13,081 nt of DNA, taken from positions 1-13,081 of the forward strand of contig JAGAMQ010000101.1 in the NCBI GenBank assembly GCA_017624645.1, read 5' to 3'. Under the pieces are notes generated by a model. The model was given only the letters and a program-made list of their open reading frames with translations, made no database searches and was not told the DNA's origin. Each line of letters starts with the position of its first letter. The first letter of the stretch is position 1. This document shows, one piece after another, positions 1 to 13,081 of this stretch. The DNA is from Oscillospiraceae bacterium. Its GTDB lineage: Bacteria > Bacillota > Clostridia > Oscillospirales > Oscillospiraceae. The translations under genes and the position numbers were made by a program.

Positions 1-1
1 G

Positions 2-508
2 ATCACCGCTGTTCAGGGCAAGCTTCTGAAGCTTCGTATGGATGTGGAGGGGTTGCAGGTGGAAAACACCGACCAAGCCGGTGCGCTGACCCGGGTGGAG
101 GCAGATCTGCAGGGAATCCGGGGACAGGTAAGTACCCAGTCTACCCAGCTTCAGAATGTACAGACCCAAATGACCCAGGTGAGCCAAACGGCTCAAAGCC
201 TGCAGATCACCGTGGACAAGATCCAAAGCGACGGTGTCAATAAGATCAAGACCCAGATGGGCTATACCTTTGACGATGCCGGATTGCAGATCGCCCGGGA
301 GGGTCAGCAGATGAAGAATCTTCTGGACAATACAGGTATGTATGTGACCCGAGACGGACAGACCGTGCTGCAGGCAAATGCTGCCGGTGTGGTGGCAACC
401 GATGTGCAGGTACATAATTTCCTGATCGTAGGCGACCATGCCCGGTTTGAAGATTATACAGACGGTCTAGACGCCCTTCGTACCGCCTGTTTCTGGTTGG
501 GAGGATAG
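2..508 (+). CDS. Phage tail-tip / minor structural protein, C-terminal part (5' end outside window)
   Basis: The reading frame is open from the first complete codon at base 2 and has no start codon with a ribosome binding site, so this is the C-terminal ~168 residues of a longer gene that begins upstream; the first ATG, at 38, has no Shine-Dalgarno sequence. The visible part is a Gln/Thr/Val-rich stretch with heptad-like spacing (about residues 45-80), predicted to be a trimeric coiled coil. It is followed by a compact end containing the segment GYTFDDAGLQIAREGQQ and the ending RTACFWLGG. This layout is familiar from the C-termini of siphovirus tail endopeptidase/tail-associated lysin proteins of Firmicutes phages, which sit at the tail tip and contact the cell surface. 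The position just before a DUF859-type gene and other tail genes agrees. The exact family cannot be settled because the N-terminal domains are missing. Confidence 0.75.
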   Translation: MTAVQGKLLKLRMDVEGLQVENTDQAGALTRVEADLQGIRGQVSTQSTQLQNVQTQMTQVSQTAQSLQITVDKIQSDGVNKIKTQMGYTFDDAGLQIAREGQQMKNLLDNTGMYVTRDGQTVLQANAAGVVATDVQVHNFLIVGDHARFEDYTDGLDALRTACFWLGG

Positions 509-512
509 AGAG

Positions 513-2156
513 ATGGCAAAGAGCTTTTCACTCACCAGCGCCGCCTACAGCGGGCGGTATCTAAAGCTGGAATGTACCCAGACCCCCAATGTAGCGGGGA
601 ATTATTCGGATATTGCCTGGACCTTGACGGTCACAGGCGGCTCATCCAACTATTACAGCACCGGTCCCACCCAAGTGACCATCGGCGGCAACACGGTGTA
701 TTCCTGCGCAAGAAAGGCATACTCCACCAAGACCTTCCCGGCGGCAAAGGGCTCCACCGGCGGGACCCTGCGGGTCTATCACAACGATGCCGATGGCACC
801 TGCACCGTAGCGGTGAGCCTTTCCACGGCGATCTACACAGCGTCTGTGTCAACGGTCAGCGGCAACTGGACATTGGACAGCATTGCCCGGGCATCGGAGA
901 TCTCGGCAACGGATGCCAACATCGAAAGTGCTTCCACGGTGGTGATCACCCGGAAGAATTCGGCATTTACTCATTCCATCGCCTATCAATTCGGCAGGCT
1001 TAGCGGATATGTCAGCAGCAGCGGCAAGGCAGTGAGCGCGGAGGAAAAATTCAGCGCCACTACGGTGAATTTTACTTTGCCGGAAAGTTTCTATAGTCAG
1101 ATACCCAACAGTAAAACCGGCACAGGAAGCCTTACCTGCCGTACGTATTCGGGCAACACCCTCATCGACACCAAAACCTGCAGCTTTACTGCCACAGCTG
1201 CGGAAAGCCGCTGTGCACCCTTGCTGGATGCATGGGTGGAGGATGTGAATTCGGCGGCGCTTGCTTTGACCGGAGATAAAAGCAAGTTGATCCGCTATGT
1301 TTCCACCGCCCGGTGCCATGTCACCGCTGTAGCACGAAAAAGCGCCACCATTGTATGGAAGAATACGGATGGAGGTACGTTAACCGGTGATTACATCGAT
1401 TATCCTCAAACGGAACGGGCAGAGTATCATACCTACACCAAGGACAGCCGGGGGTATCAGGCTTGGCACAATGTGTCTTGTGAGCTGATCCCCTATGTGG
1501 TGCTCACCGCCAACGTGTCCCTGTCCCGTCCGGAGCCTACCGGCAGTAATGTCCGGCTGGCGGTGGAAGGAAACTGCTACCGGGGAAGCTTCGGCGGGGT
1601 GGAGAATACTTTGCAGGTGCAGTGCCGGCTGGCAGGGCAGGTGCTGGATTTGGAGCCTCAATGGACCGGCAGCAACCGTTACCGTGCCGAGGTTATGCTA
1701 ACAGACTTGGATTATACCCAGACCCATCCGGTGGAGGTGACGGTGACCGATGCCGTAAACACCGTTGCCAAAAATGTCACCGTTCAGCCGGGATTGCCGG
1801 TGTTTGATTGGGGAAAGAATGATTTTGCCTTTCATGTACCGGTGACAGCACCCAGTGTCAGCGGAGTATCTCTTGGTACCCGGCGGGTGTGGAAGGAGAG
1901 CAGCTTCTCCTTCCAATCCAAGTACACTGGGTGGGACTCCGGCGGCAACCGCCAGTCCCTTTTCCTGTTCGGTAACGCCAACGGCACGCCGGTGTGGGGT
2001 GTCATCGGCATCGAAAGCAATGGAACTGTCTGGTGGAGCGGCACCGACGGAGTGAGCGTGACAGCGGAGACTGCCGGCAGGGTCCGGGTGGATCTGGGAA
2101 GGACAGTGTATGACGATTTTACCTTGCTTTCGGCAGAACAGTTCAGTCCGGAATAA
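513..2156 (+). CDS. DUF859-type siphovirus tail/baseplate protein
   Basis: This 547-residue protein starts 4 bases after the preceding stop, with a GGGAGG site at 499-504. It is rich in Ser, Thr, Val, Gly and aromatic residues, has no signal peptide or membrane segment, and reads as a string of beta-sandwich modules. The opening, with SLTSAAYSGRYLKLECTQT followed by alternating beta strands and a TVTIGG-like segment, is typical of the Siphovirus DUF859 family. These are minor structural proteins encoded next to the tail tip gene. The segment PVFDWGKNDFAFHVPV (residues 429-444) is a recurrent hinge in phage tail and baseplate proteins, placed just before a C-terminal head domain (about 450-547). 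Within the virion it probably forms part of the distal tail or baseplate and may take part in host recognition. Assignment to the family is by recognition of sequence style; the biochemical function of the family is not established. Confidence 0.78.
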   Translation: MAKSFSLTSAAYSGRYLKLECTQTPNVAGNYSDIAWTLTVTGGSSNYYSTGPTQVTIGGNTVYSCARKAYSTKTFPAAKGSTGGTLRVYHNDADGTCTVAVSLSTAIYTASVSTVSGNWTLDSIARASEISATDANIESASTVVITRKNSAFTHSIAYQFGRLSGYVSSSGKAVSAEEKFSATTVNFTLPESFYSQIPNSKTGTGSLTCRTYSGNTLIDTKTCSFTATAAESRCAPLLDAWVEDVNSAALALTGDKSKLIRYVSTARCHVTAVARKSATIVWKNTDGGTLTGDYIDYPQTERAEYHTYTKDSRGYQAWHNVSCELIPYVVLTANVSLSRPEPTGSNVRLAVEGNCYRGSFGGVENTLQVQCRLAGQVLDLEPQWTGSNRYRAEVMLTDLDYTQTHPVEVTVTDAVNTVAKNVTVQPGLPVFDWGKNDFAFHVPVTAPSVSGVSLGTRRVWKESSFSFQSKYTGWDSGGNRQSLFLFGNANGTPVWGVIGIESNGTVWWSGTDGVSVTAETAGRVRVDLGRTVYDDFTLLSAEQFSPE

Positions 2157-2180
2157 AGGGAAAAGAACAGGAGGAAACCA

Positions 2181-3455
2181 ATGAAAAAGATCAAAATACT
2201 GACGGTAGGAGGAGAATCCTACCAGATCACCGACCCGGAGGCTGCCCGGATCGATGACGGTGTCATGGATGAGGTCCACACCTGGTCCGGCAAGGAAATC
2301 ATTGACCGTCTGTGTCCCGGGTTCACGAAAACCGGTGAGCTTGTGGCCTGCGATCCTGTGGAGGGTTATCCACTGAAAGTGGTCAGCGCCATCGAACCGG
2401 TGCAGGAGGGGAGCGGCGATCCCAGCCCGGACAATGTCCGCCCCCTCACTGGTCATACGGCGGTTAGGCTGTGGCGCGGTGGGAAGAATCTTATCGACCC
2501 AGTGGAGTATATGAAGGATGTTTATAACACCACTTTGGATGGGGATGTGTTTACATCTGATTTTCAAAACGGTGGCTTATATGTCAACACCGGATATGGC
2601 AACAAAAAGACGCATCCCAAAGGCACATACACGGCGACCTTTTTCCCGGTAACGGAGGGGGCAACCTGTTCGTTTTTTGTATATTCTGCCGCTACCAAAG
2701 CACAGATAGCAGTAAAATATGGCTTAAAAGCTGGCAATGCAAGTTTCACGTTTACCATAAACGAAGAATTTTATTTATCTGTCGGTGGTGGCAAACCTTA
2801 TGGGATGCAATCTTACAAATTGCAACTGGAAGCCGGTTCCGTCGCATCCGAATACGAACCCTACCGGGGCGAGGAATTCACTATGGAGTTGGGTCAAACC
2901 GTCTATGGCGGCAGCCTGAACTGGCAAACCGGTGTGCTAACGGTGGATAAACACTGGCGCATATTCACCGGCGACGAAGCATGGTTTTGGACTGGTGATG
3001 CGAACAACAACTATAACGGAAATTACAGACCGCTGTTATACATCACAGACAGTGCCCTCTTTGCCAAGGATAGAACGGTGCCGTGTTGGTCCTCTCATTT
3101 CAAGTACGAAACACTCGTTGCTATCAATGGGGGCACAAATATTGGATGTTATGTGAATAACGATTTGATTGGAATCCGTCCCGGTCTTGGTGAGCAAGTT
3201 ACAACGATCGAGGAATGGAAAGAATGGCTTGCTGACCAAAATGCCGCTGGAACACCGGTTCAATTTTGTTATGAACTCGCCAACCCCATCACGGTCCAAC
3301 TGACACCCCGGGTGATTCCTGCGTTGCCCGGTGTCAATACCCTCTGGGCGGATACTGGCAACATCACCGTCACCGGCAGAGCAGATCCTGTGGCGGAAAA
3401 CGCAATGCTGAAATCCCGACTGGCAGCTCTGGAAGCTGCTCTCATCAACACATAA
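2181..3455 (+). CDS. Phage tail fibre / receptor-binding protein
   Basis: A 424-residue protein with an AGGAGG site at 2169-2174. Its N-terminal ~100 residues include a segment (IEPVQEGSGDPSPDNVRPL) common in Firmicutes phage receptor-binding proteins. Residues about 101-228 look like a jelly-roll sugar-binding module, opening with GGKNLIDP and ending with LQLEAGSVASEYEPY. A second module follows the GQTVYGGSLNWQTG segment, and residues near 376-395 carry PGVNTLWADTGNI, seen at the distal end of many such proteins. The last ~20 residues (AENAMLKSRLAALEAAL) form a short coiled coil, probably for trimerisation. The likely role is adsorption to a cell-wall sugar at the tail tip. Two stretches of the gene (about 2521-2820 and 3001-3240) are markedly AT-richer than the rest, suggesting exchange of the binding modules. 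Confidence 0.78.
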   Translation: MKKIKILTVGGESYQITDPEAARIDDGVMDEVHTWSGKEIIDRLCPGFTKTGELVACDPVEGYPLKVVSAIEPVQEGSGDPSPDNVRPLTGHTAVRLWRGGKNLIDPVEYMKDVYNTTLDGDVFTSDFQNGGLYVNTGYGNKKTHPKGTYTATFFPVTEGATCSFFVYSAATKAQIAVKYGLKAGNASFTFTINEEFYLSVGGGKPYGMQSYKLQLEAGSVASEYEPYRGEEFTMELGQTVYGGSLNWQTGVLTVDKHWRIFTGDEAWFWTGDANNNYNGNYRPLLYITDSALFAKDRTVPCWSSHFKYETLVAINGGTNIGCYVNNDLIGIRPGLGEQVTTIEEWKEWLADQNAAGTPVQFCYELANPITVQLTPRVIPALPGVNTLWADTGNITVTGRADPVAENAMLKSRLAALEAALINT

Positions 3456-3468
3456 GGAGGAATGAACT

Positions 3469-3870
3469 ATGTACGATATTATCCATCGTGTCATCCGCGC
3501 AGGGGGCTATAAGCTGTCCAAGGTGCTGCAGAAGATCGATTCTGTATGGGTAGATGGTGACTTGACCGACCAGCAGCGACAGCAGCTGCGTCAGCTGGCA
3601 CAGGACGGGGCATCCGTGTCCGGCGAGGTGGATATTCTTCAGCGCGTGCTGGATCTGGAGCAGCGTGTCCGCATCCTTGAGGCGGCACAGAACCCGGAGG
3701 AAGCTCCCGAGGAGTATCCTCCCTTTGTGGAGGGTAAGTGGTACTATGCCGGTGACAAGTGCTGCGAAAGCGGCAAGGACTATGTTTGCATTGCTCCGGC
3801 AGATGTTGTATGTGTATGGAGTCCCAGCGTGTATCCTGCCTATTGGGAAGAGGTGAACAGCAATGGTTAA
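3469..3870 (+). CDS. Small phage protein with coiled coil and CBM5/12-like C-terminus
   Basis: A 133-residue protein whose AAGGAGG site (3454-3460) overlaps the stop codon of the preceding gene. The N-terminal part (MYDIIHRVIRAGGYKLSK) resembles short XkdX-like proteins found after tail fibre genes, and residues about 45-75 include a predicted coiled coil (VDILQRVLDLEQRVRILEA). The end, residues about 84-130, has the spacing of carbohydrate-binding module family 5/12: an initial W in KWYYAGD, a GKDYVC core, then VWSP and a final W in YWEEV. These modules bind chitin-like or peptidoglycan-like N-acetylated sugars. Four Cys residues in this module are unusual for a cytoplasmic phage product and may be structural. 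Its role is probably accessory cell-surface binding by the virion, but a structural location is inferred from gene order only. Confidence 0.62.
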   Translation: MYDIIHRVIRAGGYKLSKVLQKIDSVWVDGDLTDQQRQQLRQLAQDGASVSGEVDILQRVLDLEQRVRILEAAQNPEEAPEEYPPFVEGKWYYAGDKCCESGKDYVCIAPADVVCVWSPSVYPAYWEEVNSNG

Positions 3871-4693
3871 AATCGCATTGGATGCCGGACATGGGCTTAA
3901 TACTGCAGGCAAGCGTACCCCCGATGGTATTCGGGAATGGTCACTGAATGACAAGGTTAGAGATAAGGTGGTGGATCTGCTCCGGGATTACGATGTGGCT
4001 TTCATCCACACCGACGGCAATGAGGGGCAAACGGACGAAGTCCTGTCCCAGCGTGTTGCCACGTATCTGGAAGCCGGCGCGGCATCTCTGGTGTCTGTGC
4101 ACCACAATGCCTTTACAGGCGATTGGAACACTGCCACCGGCGTAGAGGTATATGTGGACAGAAATTGCACCGATGCAGATCTTCGCCTGGCAAACCTTAT
4201 TTATACCCGGTTGGTCGCCTATACCGGGCTGAAGGGGCGGGGCGTGAAGCGTGCCAATTTCCAGATCATAAACCAGAACAAGATCCCGGCAGTCCTGTGT
4301 GAGGGCGGCTTCATGGATGGCACCGAGGACTATAAGTATATCACCTCCGATGCCGGACAGAGCGCCTATGCTCGGGCAATCGCGGAAGCGCTCATCGAGT
4401 TCCATGGATTGAAGAAGAAAAGCGCTTCTGCAACGATCACAAATAAACCTACTACAAAAACGGAGGTATGTACTGTGGAAATCAAGGTGTTAAAAAAAGG
4501 TGCCAAGGGCGATACCGTCAAGGCAATGCAGACCCTGCTGATCGGCTACGGCTTCAGCTGTGGTGGAAAGGGTGCAGACGGCAGCTTTGGCGGTGCCACC
4601 GACAAGGCGCTGCGGGCGTACCAGAAGGATAAGGGACTGTCCCCCGACGGCTCCTGCGGTCCCAAGACCTGGGCGGCCCTGCTGGGCGTTTAA
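3863..4693 (+). CDS. Endolysin: N-acetylmuramoyl-L-alanine amidase (Amidase_3) with peptidoglycan-binding domain
   Basis: A 276-residue lysin that overlaps the preceding gene by 8 bases, with a GAGG site at 3850-3853. The N-terminal catalytic domain (about 1-185) has the zinc amidase signature of the Amidase_3 family. Candidate zinc ligands are His10 (DAGHG), Glu25 (REWSLN) and His80 (SVHHNAF), and the catalytic Glu is Glu147 (VLCEGGFMD). It would cut the bond between N-acetylmuramic acid and L-alanine to release progeny phage. A linker at about 186-208 leads to a C-terminal PG_binding_1 domain (about 209-276: LKKGAKGDTVKAMQ, DGSFGGAT, PDGSCGPKTW). There is no signal peptide, so export would depend on the holin encoded downstream. 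The gene also contains an in-frame internal ribosome binding site and GTG codon ahead of the binding domain (listed separately), as reported for some clostridial and enterococcal phage endolysins. Confidence 0.93.
   Translation: MVKIALDAGHGLNTAGKRTPDGIREWSLNDKVRDKVVDLLRDYDVAFIHTDGNEGQTDEVLSQRVATYLEAGAASLVSVHHNAFTGDWNTATGVEVYVDRNCTDADLRLANLIYTRLVAYTGLKGRGVKRANFQIINQNKIPAVLCEGGFMDGTEDYKYITSDAGQSAYARAIAEALIEFHGLKKKSASATITNKPTTKTEVCTVEIKVLKKGAKGDTVKAMQTLLIGYGFSCGGKGADGSFGGATDKALRAYQKDKGLSPDGSCGPKTWAALLGV
4462..4477 (+). promoter_or_regulatory. Internal ribosome binding site and GTG start inside the endolysin gene
   Basis: GGAGG at 4462-4466 is followed after 8 bases by GTG at 4475-4477, which is codon 205 of the amidase and in the same frame. 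Translation from here would give a 72-residue product starting MEIKVLKKGAKGD and containing only the PG_binding_1 domain, ending at the same stop (4693). The spacing and the purine run equal those of true gene starts in this window. An ATG at 4468 is one base from the GGAGG and out of frame, so it is not the start. Established precedent: clostridial endolysins CTP1L and CD27L and the enterococcal Lys170 make such secondary products, which associate with the full-length enzyme. Whether this site is used is an inference. Confidence 0.6.
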
Positions 4694-4707
4694 GGAGGTC
4701 TGTACCA

Positions 4708-4965
4708 ATGAGTGAAGCCATCCTTGTGGCACTGATCACCGGGGGCGTGTCCCTTGCGGGTGTGGTCATAACCTGTATGGCAACGGCGAAAAAGACCGAA
4801 AAAGCCACGGCGGTGGCCCAGGCAATCACAGATACCAAGATCGACGAGCTGACCCGGGAGGTCAGGCTTCATAACGGCTTCGCCCAGCGTGTGCCTGTGG
4901 TGGAGGAGCAGATCAAGGTCATCAACCACCGGATCGCGGATCTGGAAAACGATCAAAAGCATTAG
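4708..4965 (+). CDS. XhlA-like phage membrane coiled-coil protein (putative lysis accessory)
   Basis: An 85-residue protein starting 15 bases after the endolysin stop, with GGAGG at 4694-4698. Residues about 4-25 (AILVALITGGVSLAGVVITCMA) form one membrane helix. The rest is charged and heptad-patterned; TDTKIDELTREVRLHN and the end VVEEQIKVINHRIADLE are typical of small proteins in Firmicutes phage lysis modules. These resemble the XhlA/haemolysin group, with a helix in the membrane and a coiled coil on one side. Such proteins often sit beside the holin and endolysin and are thought to help or regulate lysis. Orientation of the membrane helix is not clear from the sequence. It could alternatively be a holin regulator (antiholin-like) rather than a lysis effector. 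Confidence 0.65.
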   Translation: MSEAILVALITGGVSLAGVVITCMATAKKTEKATAVAQAITDTKIDELTREVRLHNGFAQRVPVVEEQIKVINHRIADLENDQKH

Positions 4966-5364: not shown

Positions 5365-6399
5365 ATGAATGAAAAATATACACAGCTGGCATGGGAGCAA
5401 ACCAGCCGGCTTCTTGAAATCGATTCCCCCAGCGGCTTTACGGACCGGGCGGCACGGTGGGTGCAGGAGCAGTTTCAGTCCATGGGCTTTTCCGCAACCC
5501 TTACCGCCAAGGGCGGCGTGCTGGCGGACCTGGGGGGCAGGGATGAAAATGACGCGCTGCTCCTTGCTGCCCATACGGACACCTTGGGCGGCATGGTTGC
5601 CGAGATCAAAGGAAACGGCAGACTGCGTCTGACAGCGCTGGGAGGCATGAGTGCCTGCAACGGCGAAGCGGAGAACGTCCGGGTCTATACCCGTCAGGGA
5701 AAGGTTATTGAGGGAACCCTGCAGCTTTGTAATGCGTCTTTGCATGTGAACAAGGATTACTCCGACGCAAAGCGCAGCTTTGATACTACCGAGGTGGTGC
5801 TGGATGAGCCGGTTGCCGATGCCCCGGGCACCAGAGCCTTGGGGATCCAGGTGGGAGACATTGTATGCTTCGATCCCCGGACCCGCCGCACGGAAAGCGG
5901 CTACCTTAAGAGCCGTTTTTTGGACGATAAGCTTTCCGTGGGCATCCTCCTTGCCTATGCCCGGTATTTGGCGGACAACCGTATCGTGCCCCGGCGGCGG
6001 GTGTATGTCCATGTCACCGTCTATGAAGAGGTGGGACACGGCGGCTGCGCATCAGTGCCTGCCGGAGTCACGGAGGCCATCTCCGTGGATATGGGCTGCG
6101 TAGGGGACGGGGTGCAGTGTACCGAGCGGCAGGCGTCCATCTGTGCCAAGGATTCCGGCGGTCCTTACAGCTATCAGCTGGTGGGCAGGCTCATAGATGC
6201 GGCAAAGGCAGCCGGTGCGGACTATGCAGTGGATGTCTACCCCTTCTACGGCTCCGACGTGGAAACTACCCTGCGTAGCGGCTACGATATCCGCCACGGC
6301 CTTATCGGCCCCGGTGTTTACGCCAGCCACGGCTATGAACGCAGCCACATGGACGGTATTGCCAACACCCTGAAGCTGCTCAAAGCCTTTATTGAATAA
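5365..6399 (+). CDS. M42 family metallo-aminopeptidase
   Basis: A 344-residue cytoplasmic protein with AAGGAG at 5351-5356 and its own promoter. It has the binuclear zinc/cobalt site of M42 (glutamyl aminopeptidase/tetrahedral aminopeptidase) enzymes: His70 and Asp72 in AAHTDT, the bridging Asp187 in SRFLDDKLS, the catalytic pair Glu221-Glu222 in VYEEVGHGG, Asp242 in SVDMG, and His328 in ERSHMDG. A beta-rich dimerisation domain lies between about residues 75 and 165, as is usual. These enzymes form large TET-like dodecamers and trim N-terminal residues from peptides. Members are often annotated as endoglucanase or cellulase M, which is a historic error. The gene stands alone on the + strand with a terminator just after it. 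An opp importer lies ~900 bases further on, which fits a peptide-using metabolism but they do not share a transcript. Confidence 0.92.
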   Translation: MNEKYTQLAWEQTSRLLEIDSPSGFTDRAARWVQEQFQSMGFSATLTAKGGVLADLGGRDENDALLLAAHTDTLGGMVAEIKGNGRLRLTALGGMSACNGEAENVRVYTRQGKVIEGTLQLCNASLHVNKDYSDAKRSFDTTEVVLDEPVADAPGTRALGIQVGDIVCFDPRTRRTESGYLKSRFLDDKLSVGILLAYARYLADNRIVPRRRVYVHVTVYEEVGHGGCASVPAGVTEAISVDMGCVGDGVQCTERQASICAKDSGGPYSYQLVGRLIDAAKAAGADYAVDVYPFYGSDVETTLRSGYDIRHGLIGPGVYASHGYERSHMDGIANTLKLLKAFIE

Positions 6400-6438: not shown

Positions 6439-6993
6439 TTAGCCTTCGGGATCGTATTCGGCGATGTAGGGAAGTCCCCGGTACTGCTCGGCGCAGTCCA
6501 GACCGTAGCCGATGACGAAGAAATCGTCAATGGTGAACAGTGTCATGTCTGCGTTGAACTCCACTTTCCGGCGGGAAGGCTTGTCCAGCAGGGTGACCAC
6601 CTTCAGAGACAGGGGATTCCGTGCCTTCAGCAGCTCCACCACATCCTTAAGGGTCCTGCCGGTATCGATGATGTCCTCTACGATGATCACATGATAATTG
6701 CTTACATCCTGGTCAAGGTCCATGGTGATGTTCACAACACCGGAAGAGGTGGTGCCTGCGTGATAGCTTTTGGCACACATAAAGCCGATCTCACAGGGAT
6801 GGGATACGGCACGGCACAGATCTGCCAAAAAAACGAAAGCACCTTTCAGGATGCTCACCAGAAGAACTGGCTTGCCGTCGGTATACATTTCGTCGATTTT
6901 TTTGCCTGCCTCTGCCACGGCGGCGGCGATTTCCTCCCGGGTAATGATCACCCGCTTGATCCTGCGCTGATACTGACTGATTGGATTATCCAT
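6439..6993 (-). CDS. hpt: Hypoxanthine phosphoribosyltransferase
   Basis: A 184-residue purine-salvage enzyme that joins hypoxanthine or guanine to PRPP to give IMP or GMP in the cytoplasm. The PRPP-binding motif is VIIVEDIIDTGRTL (residues 102-115), with the acidic pair Glu107-Asp108. The PPi loop is at LKG (49-51), the mobile active-site loop at KSYHAGTTSSG (75-85), Lys138 in LLDK contacts the base, and the C-terminal signature is VIGYGLDCAEQYRGLP. The ATG at 6993 is chosen because AAAAGAGGT lies 8 bases upstream, it gives the family's usual length, and the hpt promoter is at 7025-7053. An in-frame ATG at 7053 would lie within the -35 box, and one at 7023 within a base or two of the -10, so neither can be translated from this promoter. 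Confidence 0.95.
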   Translation of the reverse strand: MDNPISQYQRRIKRVIITREEIAAAVAEAGKKIDEMYTDGKPVLLVSILKGAFVFLADLCRAVSHPCEIGFMCAKSYHAGTTSSGVVNITMDLDQDVSNYHVIIVEDIIDTGRTLKDVVELLKARNPLSLKVVTLLDKPSRRKVEFNADMTLFTIDDFFVIGYGLDCAEQYRGLPYIAEYDPEG

Positions 6994-7024
6994 AAAATCG
7001 ACCTCTTTTCTCTTTTCTGACATT

Positions 7025-7053
7025 AATATACCATTTCTTGTAAGATTTAGCAA
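7025..7053 (-). promoter_or_regulatory. hpt promoter
   Basis: On the - strand TTGCTA (7053-7048) and TATATT (7030-7025) are separated by 17 bases, with TG one base before the -10 (extended -10 box). The expected start near 7018 gives a leader of about 25 bases before the ATG at 6993. Placement supports the short start of hpt. Confidence 0.7.
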
Positions 7054-7114
7054 GGTGCTTTTGCTTGTTTTGTGAAGGAGTACAAATGTCCGTGGGCAAT
7101 GTGTACAAAAGCAC

Positions 7115-7210
7115 TGGAAGCGGTGACAGGTTTTTCTAGTGAAAATTAAGTTGCAAACAAAAAAACCTTGTGGTATAATGCAACGTAGACTTACTGTATA
7201 ACCGCTTCCA
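7115..7210. repeat. 10-bp inverted repeat flanking the opp promoter
   Basis: TGGAAGCGGT at 7115-7124 and its exact reverse complement ACCGCTTCCA at 7201-7210 stand on either side of the opp promoter (7151-7179), with their centres 86 bases apart. The downstream arm would be near the beginning of the opp transcript. The pair could be an operator pair for DNA looping, or chance. No other structured element is obvious in the ~290-base gap between hpt and oppB apart from the two promoters. Confidence 0.45.
7151..7179 (+). promoter_or_regulatory. Promoter of the opp operon
   Basis: TTGCAA (7151-7156) and TATAAT (7174-7179) are separated by 17 bases and preceded by TG for an extended -10. Transcription should start near 7186, leaving an untranslated leader of ~100 bases before oppB. 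The leader has AACCGC at 7200-7205 that can pair with GCGGTT at 7254-7259, a weak possible structure. Confidence 0.8.
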
Positions 7211-7286
7211 TACCCTTTTTGAGGAATGAACGGAATCCCATATTTTCGTACCGGCGGTTTTAGCTAATAAAGAAAGGAACATTTGC

Positions 7287-8216
7287 ATGAATTCCAAAAC
7301 CTTGCTTTATATTCTAAAGCGAATCTTTCTGGCCGCGTTGACAGTTTGGATCGTTATTACCATCACTTTCTTCGTGACCCGTGCAGTGCCCGGCGGTCCC
7401 TTCCTGGGAGAAAAGGCGCTGTCTGCAGAGGCGGAAGCCGCCCTGAACGCCAAATACGGTCTGGATAAGCCTGTATTTGAGCAGTATACCACCTATTTGA
7501 GTGATATTCTTTTCCGTTTTGATTTCGGCCCCAGCCTGAAGGACCGCGGCCGGGATGTGGTGGACATTATCACTAACGGCATGAAGGTCTCCATCAAGCT
7601 GGGTGTGTGTGCTGCTGCTATTGCCACTGTGGTTGGCGTTGTGCTGGGCGCTGTGGCTGCTTTGCGCCGTAACAAGCTGGTGGATAAGATCATCATGGTG
7701 GTTACCACTGCCTTTGTTTCCATGCCCTCTTTCATTATGGGTACACTGCTTTTGCTACTGTTTGCCCAGGTACTGAAGTGGGTGCCTGCCAACGGTGCCA
7801 CAGCGGGCGGTCTTATTATGCCTGTCATCACGCTGGCACTGTATCCCGCGGCTTATATCACCCGTCTGACCCGGTCCTCCATGCTGGATGTGCTGGGACA
7901 GGATTATATCCGTACCGCCCGGGCAAAGGGTGTTTCCCCGGTGAAGGTTATCTTTGGCCATGCCCTGAAGAACTCCCTGATCCCCGTTATTACCTATCTG
8001 GGCCCCATGCTCGCGTACATCGTCACCGGTTCTCTGGTGGTGGAGCAGATCTTTGCGGTTCCCGGTATCGGCAGAGATTTTGTCAATAGTATCACAAACC
8101 GTGACTATCCCCTGATTATGGGCACCACCATCGTGCTGGCAACCCTGATCGTTGTGATGAATCTGGTCAGCGACATTATGTATAAGGTCGTTGATCCCAG
8201 AATTACCTTGGAGTAA
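7287..8216 (+). CDS. oppB: Oligopeptide ABC transporter permease OppB
   Basis: A 309-residue inner-membrane permease, first gene of the operon, with AAAGGA at 7273-7278. Helix 1 (about residues 9-30) is preceded by basic residues as usual in the BPD_transp_1 OppB/DppB family. A long external segment (31-98) contains the family's KYGLDKPVFEQYTTYL motif. Five further hydrophobic stretches follow. The cytoplasmic coupling helix, the EAA motif, is at about 205-228 (QDYIRTARAKGVSPVKVIF) and contacts the ATPases. The end SDIMYKVVDPRI (295-306) is typical of OppB. Together with OppC it forms the channel through which OppA-delivered peptides pass. The length equals that of most family members. Confidence 0.95.
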   Translation: MNSKTLLYILKRIFLAALTVWIVITITFFVTRAVPGGPFLGEKALSAEAEAALNAKYGLDKPVFEQYTTYLSDILFRFDFGPSLKDRGRDVVDIITNGMKVSIKLGVCAAAIATVVGVVLGAVAALRRNKLVDKIIMVVTTAFVSMPSFIMGTLLLLLFAQVLKWVPANGATAGGLIMPVITLALYPAAYITRLTRSSMLDVLGQDYIRTARAKGVSPVKVIFGHALKNSLIPVITYLGPMLAYIVTGSLVVEQIFAVPGIGRDFVNSITNRDYPLIMGTTIVLATLIVVMNLVSDIMYKVVDPRITLE

Positions 8217-8229
8217 GGAGGTGGCAGCG

Positions 8230-9288
8230 TTGAAAAAGAACCCCTTTAGCTTGCATGTGAACATGGATGATTTTATCCCTGCCACTGCGGAAGAAAAAGA
8301 ATATATGGTGCAGATGCGCCCCTCCACCACCTTCTTTAAGGACGGTGTGAAGCGCCTGCTGAAAAACAAGGTGGCAACTGTCAGCTTTGTTTTGATCGTG
8401 CTTATCACCCTAACTTCCATTTTTCTGCCCATGCTGTGGCCCTACGGCTACGATCAGCAGCTGGGTCAGGTGTGGGGCCGTCCCATGGATCCTTCCTACA
8501 ATAATCTTGCCCCCTTTGAGTACGGCACCACCGAACAGGCACGGATCGCCGCCGGTGAAAGCATTTTCCCCCACATTTTCGGTACCGATTCCCAGGGCCG
8601 TGACTACTTTATCCGGGTGGTCTATGGTGCCCGGATCTCTTTGGGTGTTGGCTTCTTTGCCAGTATCATCGTTCTGATCATCGGCATGACTGTGGGTTCC
8701 ATCGCCGGATATATCGGCGGCAAGGTGGATATCATTATCATGCGGATCGTGGATATTATTTATTCTCTGCCGGACACCCTTATGGTTATTCTGTTGGCTT
8801 CTGTGATGAAGGTAAGCCTGGGCGCGCTGATCGAAGGAACGGTCCTTGCCAAGCTGGGCAGTAACATGATCAGTTTGTTTGTGGTCTTTGCCCTTTTGTA
8901 CTGGGTGAGCATGTCCCGTTTGATCCGCGGACAGATCCTGAGCCTTCGCGAGCAGGAGTATGTCCTGGCTTCCAAGGCTGCCGGTGCCAAGTCCGGTTGG
9001 GTCATCAAGAAGCATCTGATCCCCAACTGCATCAGCGTGGTGATCATTTCCACCGCTTTGCAGATTCCCAACGCTATCTTCACCGAGAGCTATCTGAGCT
9101 TCTTGGGCCTGGGCGTCAACGCCCCCATGCCCAGCCTAGGCTCTCTGGCGTCCGATGCCCTGAACGGCATCTCCTCCTATCCCCACCGTCTGGTGATCCC
9201 TGCTGTGGTCATCAGCCTGATCGTGCTGTCTCTGAACCTGTTTGGTGACGGCCTGCGGGATGCTTTCGATCCCAAGCTGAAGAATTAA
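8230..9288 (+). CDS. oppC: Oligopeptide ABC transporter permease OppC
   Basis: A 352-residue permease pairing with OppB. The TTG start at 8230 is chosen because AAGGAGG (8215-8221) stands 8 bases before it and the start clears the oppB stop; the frame could be opened further upstream at 8191, but that would sit within oppB without a ribosome binding site. The cytoplasmic N-terminus is long (about 48 residues), then helix 1 (about 50-69), an extracytoplasmic segment with HIFGTDSQGRD (115-125), a conserved OppC/DppC motif, four or five more helices, and the EAA motif at about 242-265 (EYVLASKAAGAKSGWVIKK). FLGLGVNAPMPSLG (291-304) and the ending LRDAFDPKL are family hallmarks. It is about 50 residues longer than E. 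coli OppC, mainly in the N-terminus and first external loop. Confidence 0.93.
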   Translation: MKKNPFSLHVNMDDFIPATAEEKEYMVQMRPSTTFFKDGVKRLLKNKVATVSFVLIVLITLTSIFLPMLWPYGYDQQLGQVWGRPMDPSYNNLAPFEYGTTEQARIAAGESIFPHIFGTDSQGRDYFIRVVYGARISLGVGFFASIIVLIIGMTVGSIAGYIGGKVDIIIMRIVDIIYSLPDTLMVILLASVMKVSLGALIEGTVLAKLGSNMISLFVVFALLYWVSMSRLIRGQILSLREQEYVLASKAAGAKSGWVIKKHLIPNCISVVIISTALQIPNAIFTESYLSFLGLGVNAPMPSLGSLASDALNGISSYPHRLVIPAVVISLIVLSLNLFGDGLRDAFDPKLKN

Positions 9289-9305: not shown

Positions 9306-10304
9306 ATGGCATTACTTGAAGTACGTGACCTGCATACGGCGTTTACCACTCCCGCAGGCACTGTCAATGCGGTAAACGGCGTGTCCTTTAATCTGGAACG
9401 GGGCAAGGTGCTGGGCATCGTTGGTGAGTCCGGCTCCGGTAAGTCCGTTACCGCTTATTCCATTATGCAGATTCTGGAGAAGAACGGCAAGATCGTCTCC
9501 GGCTCCGTGAAGATCGACGGTCAGGAGCTGGTGGGTGCCGGGGAGAAGGTCATGAAGACCGTTCGCGGCAACAAGATCTCCATTATCTTCCAGGACCCTA
9601 TGACCTCTCTGAACCCCACCTATACCGTGGGCCATCAGCTGACAGAGGCCATTCTGCTGCACACCAACCGCAACAAGAAGCAGGCCTATGACCGGGCTGT
9701 GGAAATGCTTCGTCTGGTGAATATCAATGAGCCGCATAAGCGTATGAAGCAGTATCCCTACGAGTTCTCCGGCGGTATGCGTCAGCGTATTATGATTGCA
9801 ATGGCACTGGCCTGTGAGCCGGATATCCTCATTGCCGACGAGCCTACCACCGCACTGGACGTGACCATTCAGGCGCAGATTCTGGAGCTGATGAAGTCTC
9901 TGCAGGAAGAGCTGGGCATGGCAATCATTATGATTACCCATGATCTGGGTGTTGTGGCGCAGATGTGTGACGAAGTGATCGTCATGTATGCTGGCTCCAT
10001 TTGTGAGCAGGGCACCGCTGACGAGATCTTCTACAACCCCCGCCACGAGTACACCAAGGGCCTGATGCACTCCATCCCCACCGTGAACAACGATGACGAA
10101 AAGCTGGAGCCCATCTCCGGCACGCCCATCGACCTTTTGAATATGCCCAAGGGTTGCCCCTTTGCACCCAGGTGCGATGCAGCTATGAAGATCTGTCTCC
10201 GGGAGCGCTGCCAGCGCATGGAGATCAATGAGGATCATGCAGCAGCCTGCTGGATGAATGTGAAAGAGCAGATGGAGCAAGAGGAAGGCGGTGAGGAAGC
10301 ATGA
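9306..10304 (+). CDS. oppD: Oligopeptide ABC transporter ATPase OppD
   Basis: A 332-residue cytoplasmic ATPase with AAGGAA at 9291-9296. Walker A is GESGSGKS (40-47), Q-loop Gln96, the ABC signature FSGGMRQ (154-160), Walker B ILIADEP (174-180) and the switch His212 in MITHDLG. After the nucleotide-binding domain comes the oligopeptide/dipeptide C-terminal extension with GCPFAPRC and further cysteines (284, 290, 297, 302, 315). In some DppD/OppD proteins such cysteines bind a [4Fe-4S] cluster; the same may hold here. It forms a heterodimer with OppF and powers transport through OppBC. The gene overlaps oppF by 4 bases (ATGA), indicating translational coupling. Confidence 0.95.
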
Positions 10305-11281
10305 GCAATATGGAAAATCTCGTTGAAGTCAAGAACCTGAAGGAATACTTCAATATCACCACCGGTATGTTCCAGTCCAAGCCTTTGAAGGCTGTGGACG
10401 ATGTTTCCTTCGCCATCCGCAAGGGTGAAACTTTGGGTCTCGTAGGCGAGTCCGGCTGCGGCAAGACCACCGTGGGCCGTACCATTTTGCACCTTTACAA
10501 GCCCACTGCCGGTGAGATCTGGTTCAAGGGCAAGAAGATCGAGACCAAGGCAGATATCATGGAATACCGTAAGAAGTCTGCCATGGTGTTCCAGGATCCC
10601 TATTCCTCTCTGAACCCCCGTATGACTGTTTCCGATATCATCGGTGAGCCTCTGGACATCCACAAGATGTATGCCGATAAGGCAGAGCGTCAGGAAAAGA
10701 TCCTGGAGCTGATGAACCGGGTGGGACTGAACTCTGAGCATGCCAGCCGGTACGCCCATGAGTTCTCCGGCGGTCAGCGTCAGCGTATCGGCATTGCCCG
10801 GGCGCTGGCAACGAGCCCCGAGTTCGTGGTGTGTGACGAGCCTGTTTCCGCACTGGACGTTTCCATTCAGGCACAGGTCATCAATATGTTTGATGAGCTG
10901 CAGGATCAGATGGATCTGACCTACCTGTTCATTGCCCATGACCTTTTGGTTGTGCGTCACATTTCCGACCGGATCGCCGTTATGTATCTGGGCAAGATGG
11001 TGGAGCTGGCAGATGCCAAGGAGATCTATGACCATCCCCTGCATCCCTACTCCAAGAGCCTGATGTCCGCGGTTCCCGTGCCGGATCCCAAAATCGCCAG
11101 AGCCAACCAGCGTGTGGTCCTCACCGGCGATATCCCCAGCCCCCTCAATGCGCCCTCCGGCTGCCCCTTCCGCACCCGCTGCCCCTACGCCTGCGACGCC
11201 TGTGCCGAAGCCATGCCCGAGCTGAAGGAAGTGTCCCCCGGTCACTTCGTTGCCTGCCACAGAGTGGCAGAGATCAACTAA
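10301..11281 (+). CDS. oppF: Oligopeptide ABC transporter ATPase OppF
   Basis: A 326-residue cytoplasmic ATPase, partner of OppD, whose ATG overlaps the oppD stop. Walker A GESGCGKT (49-56), Q-loop Gln98, signature FSGGQRQ (155-161), Walker B VVCDEP (176-181), and His213 in IAHDLLVV are all intact, so both nucleotide sites of the OppDF pair should be competent. The C-terminal extension again carries a cysteine cluster (288, 294, 298, 301, 319) with [12 protein letters not shown]. The variant [23 protein letters not shown] at the N-terminus is of the OppF type. The next gene, oppA, begins after a gap of 114 bases, which holds a hairpin. Confidence 0.95.
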
Positions 11282-11395: not shown

Positions 11396-13081
11396 ATGAA
11401 GAAACTCTTTGCTCTGCTTCTGGCAGTTGTGTTGGTGTTTGGTCTGGTCGCTTGCGGCGCTCCCGCTCAGCAGGCTGGCAATCCCAATGCTTCCACCGCT
11501 ACCGTGAAGCCCACTACCCCCGAAGAGATCGAAGCTGCTCAGGCTGAGATCCGTTACGCTGTCGGCCTGCTGCTGGACCGCAACTACATCGTTGAGTCCG
11601 TCTCCCAGGCTGGCGAGAAGCCCGCTAACTCCTTCGTTGCTGACGGCATGGCCGACCTGAACGGCGGTAACTTTGCTGCCAATGCCAATGGTGGTAAGGG
11701 CTACTACAGCGTCGACAAGGCCCAGTTCCAGGCCAACTTTGACGAGGCAGTTACCATTCTGAAGAAGTACTACGACTTTGACGGCACAAAGTTCGTCGGC
11801 TTCCCCACCCTGAACTACATCTACAACACCAACGACGGCCACAAGGCAATCGCTGAGTACATTCAGGGCGCTCTGAGCAATGTCGGCATCAGCATGAACC
11901 TGGAGAACCAGGAGTGGAACACCTTCCTGAACACCCGTAAGGAAGGCAACTACTCTGTTGCCCGTAACGGCTGGGTTGCTGACTACACCGATCCCATCTG
12001 CTTCCTGGATATGTGGGTCACCGCTTCCGGTAACAACGATGTGCAGTTCGGCAAGGGCGCACACGCTGACCTGAAGATCTACGATCTGGACCTGACCAAG
12101 TGGGGTTACGAGACCAAGGTCGAGAAGGGCACCTGGGCTGAGACCTACGACGTGCTGATCTCCACCATCAAGGCTTGCACCGATGATGAGACCCGTTTCG
12201 AGCTGATGCACCTGGCAGAGGATATGCTGATGGCTACCGGCTGCCTGACCCCCGTCTACTACTACACTGATCTGTACATGATCAACCCCGCTGTGAAGGG
12301 CTTCTACTCCATCCCCTTGGGCTACAAGTACTTCCAGAACACCACTGTTGAGGGCAAGACCTCTCTGCCCGTGTGCCTGGCTTCCGAGCCCGACACCATC
12401 GACCCCGCTCTGAACTCCGCTGTTGACGGCGCTACCATGCTGACCCACCTGTTCGCAGGTCTGGCAAAGTGGGCACAGGCCGAGGACGGCACTCTGTCCG
12501 TGGTTGCTGACTGCGCTGAGGAGCTGGTTGAGGGTGTTACCAACGACGACGGCACCGTGACCTACACCTATACCCTGCGTGACGGCCTGAAGTGGTCCGA
12601 CGGCAAGGCTATGTCCGCTAAGGACTTCGAGTTCGCGTGGAAGCGCGCTGCCTCCACTGAGCTGGGCGCTGACTACGGCTACATGTTCGAGGTCATTAAG
12701 GGCTACGGCACCGACAACAAGGACGACCTGGCTGTTAAGGCTATCGACGACAAGACCCTGGAGGTCACCCTGAGCAACGCTGTTGCTTACTGGAACGAGC
12801 TGCTGGCATTCCCCACCTACTTCCCCGTCCGCGAGGATGTGGTTGCTGATGAGAAGTGGGCTACCGAGGCTGCTACCTACGTCTGCAACGGCGCTTACAC
12901 CATCTCCGCTTGGGAGCATGACTCCGTCATCACCATGACCAAGAACGAGGCTTACTATGATGCCGCTAACGTCACCATGCCTGAGCTGAAGTTCTACCTG
13001 TCCGATGACGCCAACAACATGCTGACCAACTACAAGAACGGCGACTGGCTGCTCATCGACGACGTTCCCACCAACGAGATC
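11396..13081 (+). CDS. oppA: Oligopeptide-binding lipoprotein OppA-like, apparently circularly permuted (3' end outside window)
   Basis: 562 codons are visible without a stop; the start ATG follows AAAGGA (11381-11386). A lipoprotein signal peptide is clear (KK then a hydrophobic run, lipobox Leu17-Val18-Ala19-Cys20), so it is anchored outside the membrane, where it would capture peptides for OppBCDF. A polar linker (21-41) follows. Residues ~43-317 then match the C-terminal half of the SBP_bac_5/OppA family: IRYAVGLLLDRNYIVESV, YNTNDGHKAIAEYI, NLENQEWNTFLNTRKEG (168-184), GWVADYTDP, LMHLAEDMLM, PVYYYTDLYM, and the family's usual C-terminal end LGYKYFQ. From residue ~324 the sequence is the normal N-terminal half: LASEPDTIDPALNSAVDGAT, TLRDGLKWSDGK, NGAYTISAWEHDS, DDVPTNEI. 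The order is thus reversed relative to E. coli OppA. Codon use is strongly biased (GCT, GAC, AAC, ATC), as in highly expressed genes. Function as a peptide-binding protein is inferred from its place as the last gene of the opp operon. Confidence 0.9.
   Translation, partial: MKKLFALLLAVVLVFGLVACGAPAQQAGNPNASTATVKPTTPEEIEAAQAEIRYAVGLLLDRNYIVESVSQAGEKPANSFVADGMADLNGGNFAANANGGKGYYSVDKAQFQANFDEAVTILKKYYDFDGTKFVGFPTLNYIYNTNDGHKAIAEYIQGALSNVGISMNLENQEWNTFLNTRKEGNYSVARNGWVADYTDPICFLDMWVTASGNNDVQFGKGAHADLKIYDLDLTKWGYETKVEKGTWAETYDVLISTIKACTDDETRFELMHLAEDMLMATGCLTPVYYYTDLYMINPAVKGFYSIPLGYKYFQNTTVEGKTSLPVCLASEPDTIDPALNSAVDGATMLTHLFAGLAKWAQAEDGTLSVVADCAEELVEGVTNDDGTVTYTYTLRDGLKWSDGKAMSAKDFEFAWKRAASTELGADYGYMFEVIKGYGTDNKDDLAVKAIDDKTLEVTLSNAVAYWNELLAFPTYFPVREDVVADEKWATEAATYVCNGAYTISAWEHDSVITMTKNEAYYDAANVTMPELKFYLSDDANNMLTNYKNGDWLLIDDVPTNEI

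Follow-up and report, generated by a model that had tools for sequence, protein, structure and literature searches.

A circularly permuted OppA homolog in an intact opp operon, and relatives cut at three different loops

The oppA gene of an intact oppBCDF-oppA operon encodes, in our reading (probability about 0.9), a circularly permuted oligopeptide-binding lipoprotein with a canonical-like fold, and belongs to a family that has been re-cut at three loops, with several changes of topology. The gene lies at the end of the window, that is, the whole 13,081-nucleotide stretch of DNA analysed here, which is the entire contig C85 of a fragmented metagenome-assembled genome (MAG; 68% complete, 190 contigs). 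Hundreds of permuted protein pairs are known; the intermediates and the causes are mostly lost. The relatives described below, cut at three places or uncut, amount to a natural experiment on the ways and causes of circular permutation: as close orthologs of unlike topology share one operon position, comparing them can test origin, reversibility and selection.

Segment order of the window protein

The ORF at 11396-13081 is a single open frame with no stop up to the contig end. In HMMER comparisons with solved structures, query residues 319-551 pair with residues 17-250 of B. subtilis OppA (8are) and query residues 50-216 with residues 295-450, so the segment order of the window ORF is inverted; DppE (8ay0) pairs with the protein in three stretches, likewise in inverted order. 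The homology to solved OppA and DppE spans both halves. Pfam SBP_bac_5 (PF00496) matches in two stretches (E 4.8e-55; 187.6 bits against a gathering score of 32.4), and both the Pfam and the NCBIfam matches have the halves swapped. The ORF scores 1970 when aligned to a doubled normal reference and 1020 against a single one; because of this difference, and of the gap across 207 ORFs reported below, the permuted order is not a matter of chance. The sequence-only reading had claimed swapped halves after a signal peptide and linker, as these comparisons confirm, and a link of about nine residues between the halves, found here as the stretch NTTVEGKTS (Table 1).

Residues 44-314, C-terminal in canonical OppA, carry the helix IRYAVGLLLDRNYIV and the motifs NLENQEWNTFL, GWVADYTDP, PVYYYTDLY and GYKYFQ. 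The N-terminal-type segment that follows is cut by the contig end and lacks the last 33 codons present in the nearest full-length relative, L038. In complete relatives each segment occurs once, the cyclic order is changed and the old ends are joined, as in a natural circular permutation; the last ~33 codons of the window gene would lie beyond the contig end. The N-to-C segment order that is usual in SBP_bac_5, and stands outside the Pfam definition, is not found in the window protein, where it is rotated. On its sequence, we file the protein as a permuted homolog of the SBP_bac_5/OppA family and not as a canonical member. Its score against the NCBIfam OppA equivalog NF011684 is 194.4 bits, below the curated cut-off of 947; since the canonical relative L110 also falls under that cut-off (223 bits), the failure reflects distance, not topology.

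Table 1. Coordinates of the oppA segments and of the upstream opp genes in the window
Feature	Coordinates	Strand	Basis
Signal peptide, lipobox LVAC, expected lipidation at Cys20	11396..11455	+	read directly from sequence
Tether linker, about 20-23 residues	11456..11524	+	direct reading; P1 median to first aligned residue 20 (lipobox found in 43 of 46)
Segment C-terminal in canonical OppA, residues 44-314	11525..12337	+	pairs with 8ay0 291-512; begins at reference position 275
Junction of the former C and N termini, NTTVEGKTS, about 9 residues	12338..12364	+	junctions compared, 14 per permuted class
Segment N-terminal in canonical OppA, residues 324-562	12365..13081	+	residues 376-559 match Pfam profile positions 5-179; structure matches
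oppB permease	7287..8216	+	Pfam BPD_transp_1
oppC permease	8191..9288	+	Pfam OppC_N, BPD_transp_1
oppD ATPase	9306..10304	+	Pfam ABC_tran, oligo_HPY
oppF ATPase	10301..11281	+	Pfam ABC_tran, oligo_HPY

Four chain topologies among relatives

A search for proteins of the same order, which had been proposed from the sequence alone, found them in genomes of the same genus and in many records from other projects. Across the 99 genomes searched, the window's own included, 14 others of its genus encode a near-full-length match in the same order (44-81% identity), and five genomes (G049, G009, G052, G030 and G051) encode both halves in canonical order (58-75% identity). The genome collection yielded 487 related stretches, and the best 80 of them were retained.

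Family ORFs were aligned to a doubled copy of the canonical reference L110 (557 residues). Among 207 near-full-length ORFs, the gain from doubling was at most 10 points in 108 and at least 146 in 99, with none between. The relatives, mostly at the same position in the oppBCDF-oppA operon, have either the canonical order (N) or one of three circular permutations, each opened at a loop of its own: P1 is the cut of the window, P2 lies ~95 residues later and P3 ~210 later. The filtered set of 198 proteins holds 100 N, 46 P1, 29 P2 and 23 P3, counts that come from query-led searches over limited loci and not from a random sample. Identical cores, aligned spans below 480, identities below 0.40 and canonical alignments starting past position 40 were dropped before counting; near-identical rows may persist among the 198. 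In reference coordinates these proteins start at 250-282 (P1), 366-375 (P2) and 445-488 (P3); the extremes at 250 (two rows), 445 and 448 (one each) are possibly over-extended local alignments, and the others fall at 266-282 (P1) and 481-488 (P3). The permuted relatives are clean circles. The relatives show a family re-cut at the three loops P1, P2 and P3, the topology of which appears to have changed several times, and sequence comparison confirms the window oppA as a simple circular permutation that recurs in many independent assemblies.

The classes also meet within single genera and genomes. Within the window's family P3 occurs in several genera; it is also present in two genomes that share the class but not the order of the window (L256, L257). 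Genome G048, in the same genus as the window, encodes one OppA of P1 and one of P3 type, L112 (G048:C181) and L016 (G048:C153), which are 41% identical after rotation, and in G469 a P3 gene is accompanied by a second gene that opens in canonical order and is truncated at a contig end. In the genus around a P2 genome, one of two genomes was matched. Orthologs of differing topology in one operon place reach 88% identity over a half (L097 versus G790). The motif GWxxDY, which we take to be involved in binding peptides, does not vary across 22 P1 and 16 P2 rows; C20 is near-invariant across the 22 P1 rows, and a lipobox pattern is present in 185 of the 198 classified proteins.

A few records stand apart. 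MAGs titled Coriobacteriaceae (L061, L062, L065, L067) carry a P1 oppA, either through a mislabelled record or through transfer, and in L062, L065 and L067 a second, distant family-5 binding protein is encoded downstream. L015 / L117 (G057:C6) is a P1-type ORF without the first ~130 residues of the match that starts with an unrelated stretch, a truncation or a chimera. L271 / L151 (G394:C103) is a canonical-order oppA, similar to L272, in which an in-frame TAG separates two ORFs; this may reflect decay, assembly error or readthrough.

The opp operon and its neighbourhood

Pfam identifies oppB, oppC, oppD and oppF, the partner genes of an Opp importer, directly upstream of the window oppA, in agreement with the earlier description of an otherwise intact operon. 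The listed oppC ORF starts at TTG, and its true start is probably later. Among 300 unfiltered rows (150 N, 90 P1, 37 P2 and 23 P3, at loci that overlap), 272 are preceded on their own strand by one or more of oppB, C, D and F (140 N, 73 P1, 37 P2, 22 P3). The 28 rows without an upstream opp gene divide into 20 with fewer than 900 bases upstream and eight (six P1, two N) with at least 900. Possible orphan or moved oppA genes, with at least 900 bases upstream in the stretch examined and no oppBCDF gene among them, are L113, L137, L146, L051 and L057 (P1) and L202 and L226 (N); L017 is the same gene as L113.

Ahead of the window operon lies a phage-like module (1-4965) with a DUF859 tail protein (513-2156), an endolysin with Amidase_3 and PG_binding_1 domains (3863-4693) and a small PHROG of unassigned function (4708-4965). 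Between this module and the operon are an M42 peptidase (5365-6399, + strand) and a phosphoribosyltransferase (6439-7053, - strand).

Probable recurrence of the permutations

Our boldest reading, tentative and at less than even odds, is that oppA of gut Clostridia has been re-cut repeatedly, perhaps both from canonical to permuted order and in reverse, at three preferred loops, with its sequence and operon staying put. In the rival account, which we regard as rather unlikely, every topology had a single, ancient origin, after which oppA alone passed between operons by transfer or recombination, so that recurrence is only apparent. Both the operon tree and the trees of OppA itself bear on the choice.

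For the tree of OppB, C, D and F, 148 usable operons were reduced to 134 by duplicate removal and to 114 by thinning. Topology has to change 10 times on the 114-row tree (P1 6, N 9, P3 3, P2 1), and the starred branches alone force N 8, P1 5 and P3 3; the changes fall to eight without L272 and L277, the place of which is unsure, and to seven without L097 as well. A single P1 clade is rejected on this tree, L097 included, at a cost of 336 log-likelihood units (p 1.7e-34). P2, as a single origin followed by transfer would have it, is one clade; one-clade P3, also in line with that account, is not rejected (p 0.56), and the tree held to it scores 6.9 units better than the free one. Since the held tree scores better, the 10 changes come from an imperfect quick tree. 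Alternatives for the ancestral order within the inner clade are one step apart.

Canonical L114 and L116, counted on the side of recurrence, sit inside a P1 operon clade (starred branches of 98 and 100), and their OppA halves are nearest other canonical ones. The operons of canonical L272 and L277 fall with P3 (100, starred), beside or inside the P3 clade, and both of their OppA halves are nearest P3 proteins (the halves of L272 are 67% and 62% identical to L254). Some mismatches in topology could stem from oppA having moved from one operon to another.

OppA sequences were rotated to canonical order before the tree tests. A 73-row OppA tree left out L017, rows below 0.58 identity and rows at least 78% alike, with named rows and outgroups exempt; under a mixture model, one-clade P1 is not rejected on it (p 0.136), as expected from a single origin with later transfer. 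Against that account, 35 analyst-chosen OppA rows reject one-clade P1 (p 0.0004 on codon positions 1+2, p 0.004 on protein); without L097 the same 35-row test no longer does so (p 0.21 on codon positions). The OppA data support at least two P1 histories, by way of one gene, L097.

L097 is P1, yet its four transporter genes and both its OppA halves are nearest canonical loci (for the halves L179/L280, then L109, L110, L111 and L180), which speaks against a single origin with transfer. It is one metagenome contig, the last kilobase of which holds an odd OppA fragment: positions 6742-7386 encode a C-terminal fragment of another OppA, and a T-rich stretch with an inverted repeat directly precedes it at the contig end. 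The idea that this fragment is left over from a tandem duplication was set aside, since its identity to the reference is about 41% and the contig ends there. In a search for a sister of L097, five of 32 genomes in the genus of its nearest relative were matched (E 1e-60), with no P1 order among the segments listed.

Route of permutation

Each change of topology would most likely have proceeded by tandem duplication in place, followed by loss of the redundant ends. In the accessible text of PMC3320104, circular permutation has two main models, duplication and fission-fusion. No duplication intermediate was found among 222 family ORFs: their 198 unaligned ends of at least 30 residues were aligned again to two references, with no score above 70. 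This would also fit fission into two genes and re-fusion in another order, a route that we consider unlikely: 13 of the 222 ORFs are shorter than 450 residues, eight of them are truncated where a contig or stretch ends, and the remaining five, made up of the pieces on either side of a single stop (L150, L151), L023 and the L097 fragment, contain no pair of complete halves.

The window stops short of any stop codon, and its frame might in principle run on beyond 13081 into a second C-terminal half, making a C-N-C partial duplication. We give this very little credence. In L038, 89% identical to the window protein, the stop comes 33 codons beyond the window's last residue and no half is duplicated; the complete P1 relatives listed end about 31-35 residues beyond the corresponding point, and a repeated segment appears in none of the re-searched ends (at least 30 residues) of the 222 family ORFs. 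The sequence-only reading had predicted a simple permutation with a stop 40-50 codons on: the permutation holds, and the distance, judged from L038, is shorter. An assembly artefact from collapsed tandem oppA copies, to which the position of the gene at a contig end of a MAG in 190 pieces might have pointed, is scarcely credible given the same order, with both joins in frame, in 14 other same-genus genomes of the 99 searched, the same cut points in many records from other projects, and a dN/dS well under 1.

Fold, selection and proposed function

Both halves are under purifying selection: dN/dS between the window gene and four P1 relatives is 0.107, 0.275, 0.241 and 0.287. A decayed gene was judged unlikely on the same ground, these values being well under 1.

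The structure prediction suggested in the sequence-only reading gave a P1 model, and superposition by sequential aligners covered only parts of it. AF2, which recovers known folds readily, returned pLDDT 83.0 and pTM 0.79 for P1 and pLDDT 77.7 and pTM 0.71 for P2. Residues 319-588 of the P1 model superpose on residues 1-274 of 1ola; Foldseek covers only about half of the model (TMq 0.38), and as a sequential aligner it is unable to show a whole permuted superposition. The canonical OppA fold would be kept, because a short turn joins the old ends and the new ends would lie in the surface crossover between lobes I and III.

We propose that the protein is exported and lipidated at Cys20, and that it would bind peptides between its lobes and hand them to OppBC. 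The main physical change would be a membrane tether on lobe III, formerly on lobe I; the window protein is likely an ordinary peptide receptor with its lipid anchor so shifted. Median tether linkers in the 198 classified proteins are 21 (N), 20 (P1), 9 (P2) and 34.5 (P3) residues, with wide and overlapping ranges. Such a shift bears on how lipid-tethered binding proteins dock on their importers, as the tether would move between lobes and the binding residues would stay. If the family has indeed been re-cut repeatedly, chain topology would be a fast-evolving character of one ortholog, and position and length of the lipid tether would be the selected trait. Annotation that reports a family-5 match without segment order would miss the permutation.

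Comparison with known systems

The OppA/DppE-type family 5 binding proteins, presumably 'cluster C', are the closest known system (SBP_bac_5; 8are, 8ay0 and E. coli OppA 1ola). With them the window protein shares homology in both halves, a lipoprotein signal and the oppBCDF operon; unlike in canonical OppA and DppE, its segments are rotated and its tether would sit at the lobe III end. A literature search, with most subscription journals outside its coverage, returned no report of a circularly permuted OppA-type protein.

The accessible text of PMC4990184 describes TpMglB-2 (Tp0684) of Treponema pallidum, 'Type Ic / Cluster Bc', as a natural circularly permuted, membrane-tethered substrate-binding protein, with structure and glucose binding demonstrated and with anchoring suggested by its authors as a possible reason. 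On that description it resembles the window protein in being both permuted and membrane-tethered. It differs from OppA in having a Type I / Cluster B sugar-binder fold, in the poor conservation of its permuted part and in the single topology described there (PMC4990184). The listed sequence and fold matches of the window protein are OppA/DppE-type proteins.

Circularly permuted DNA methyltransferases are presented in the accessible text of PMC3320104 as a family with documented intermediates. As far as that text goes, they have permuted orders within one family, as OppA does here; unlike them, the OppA forms are orthologs in one operon place, with the high identity over a half given above.
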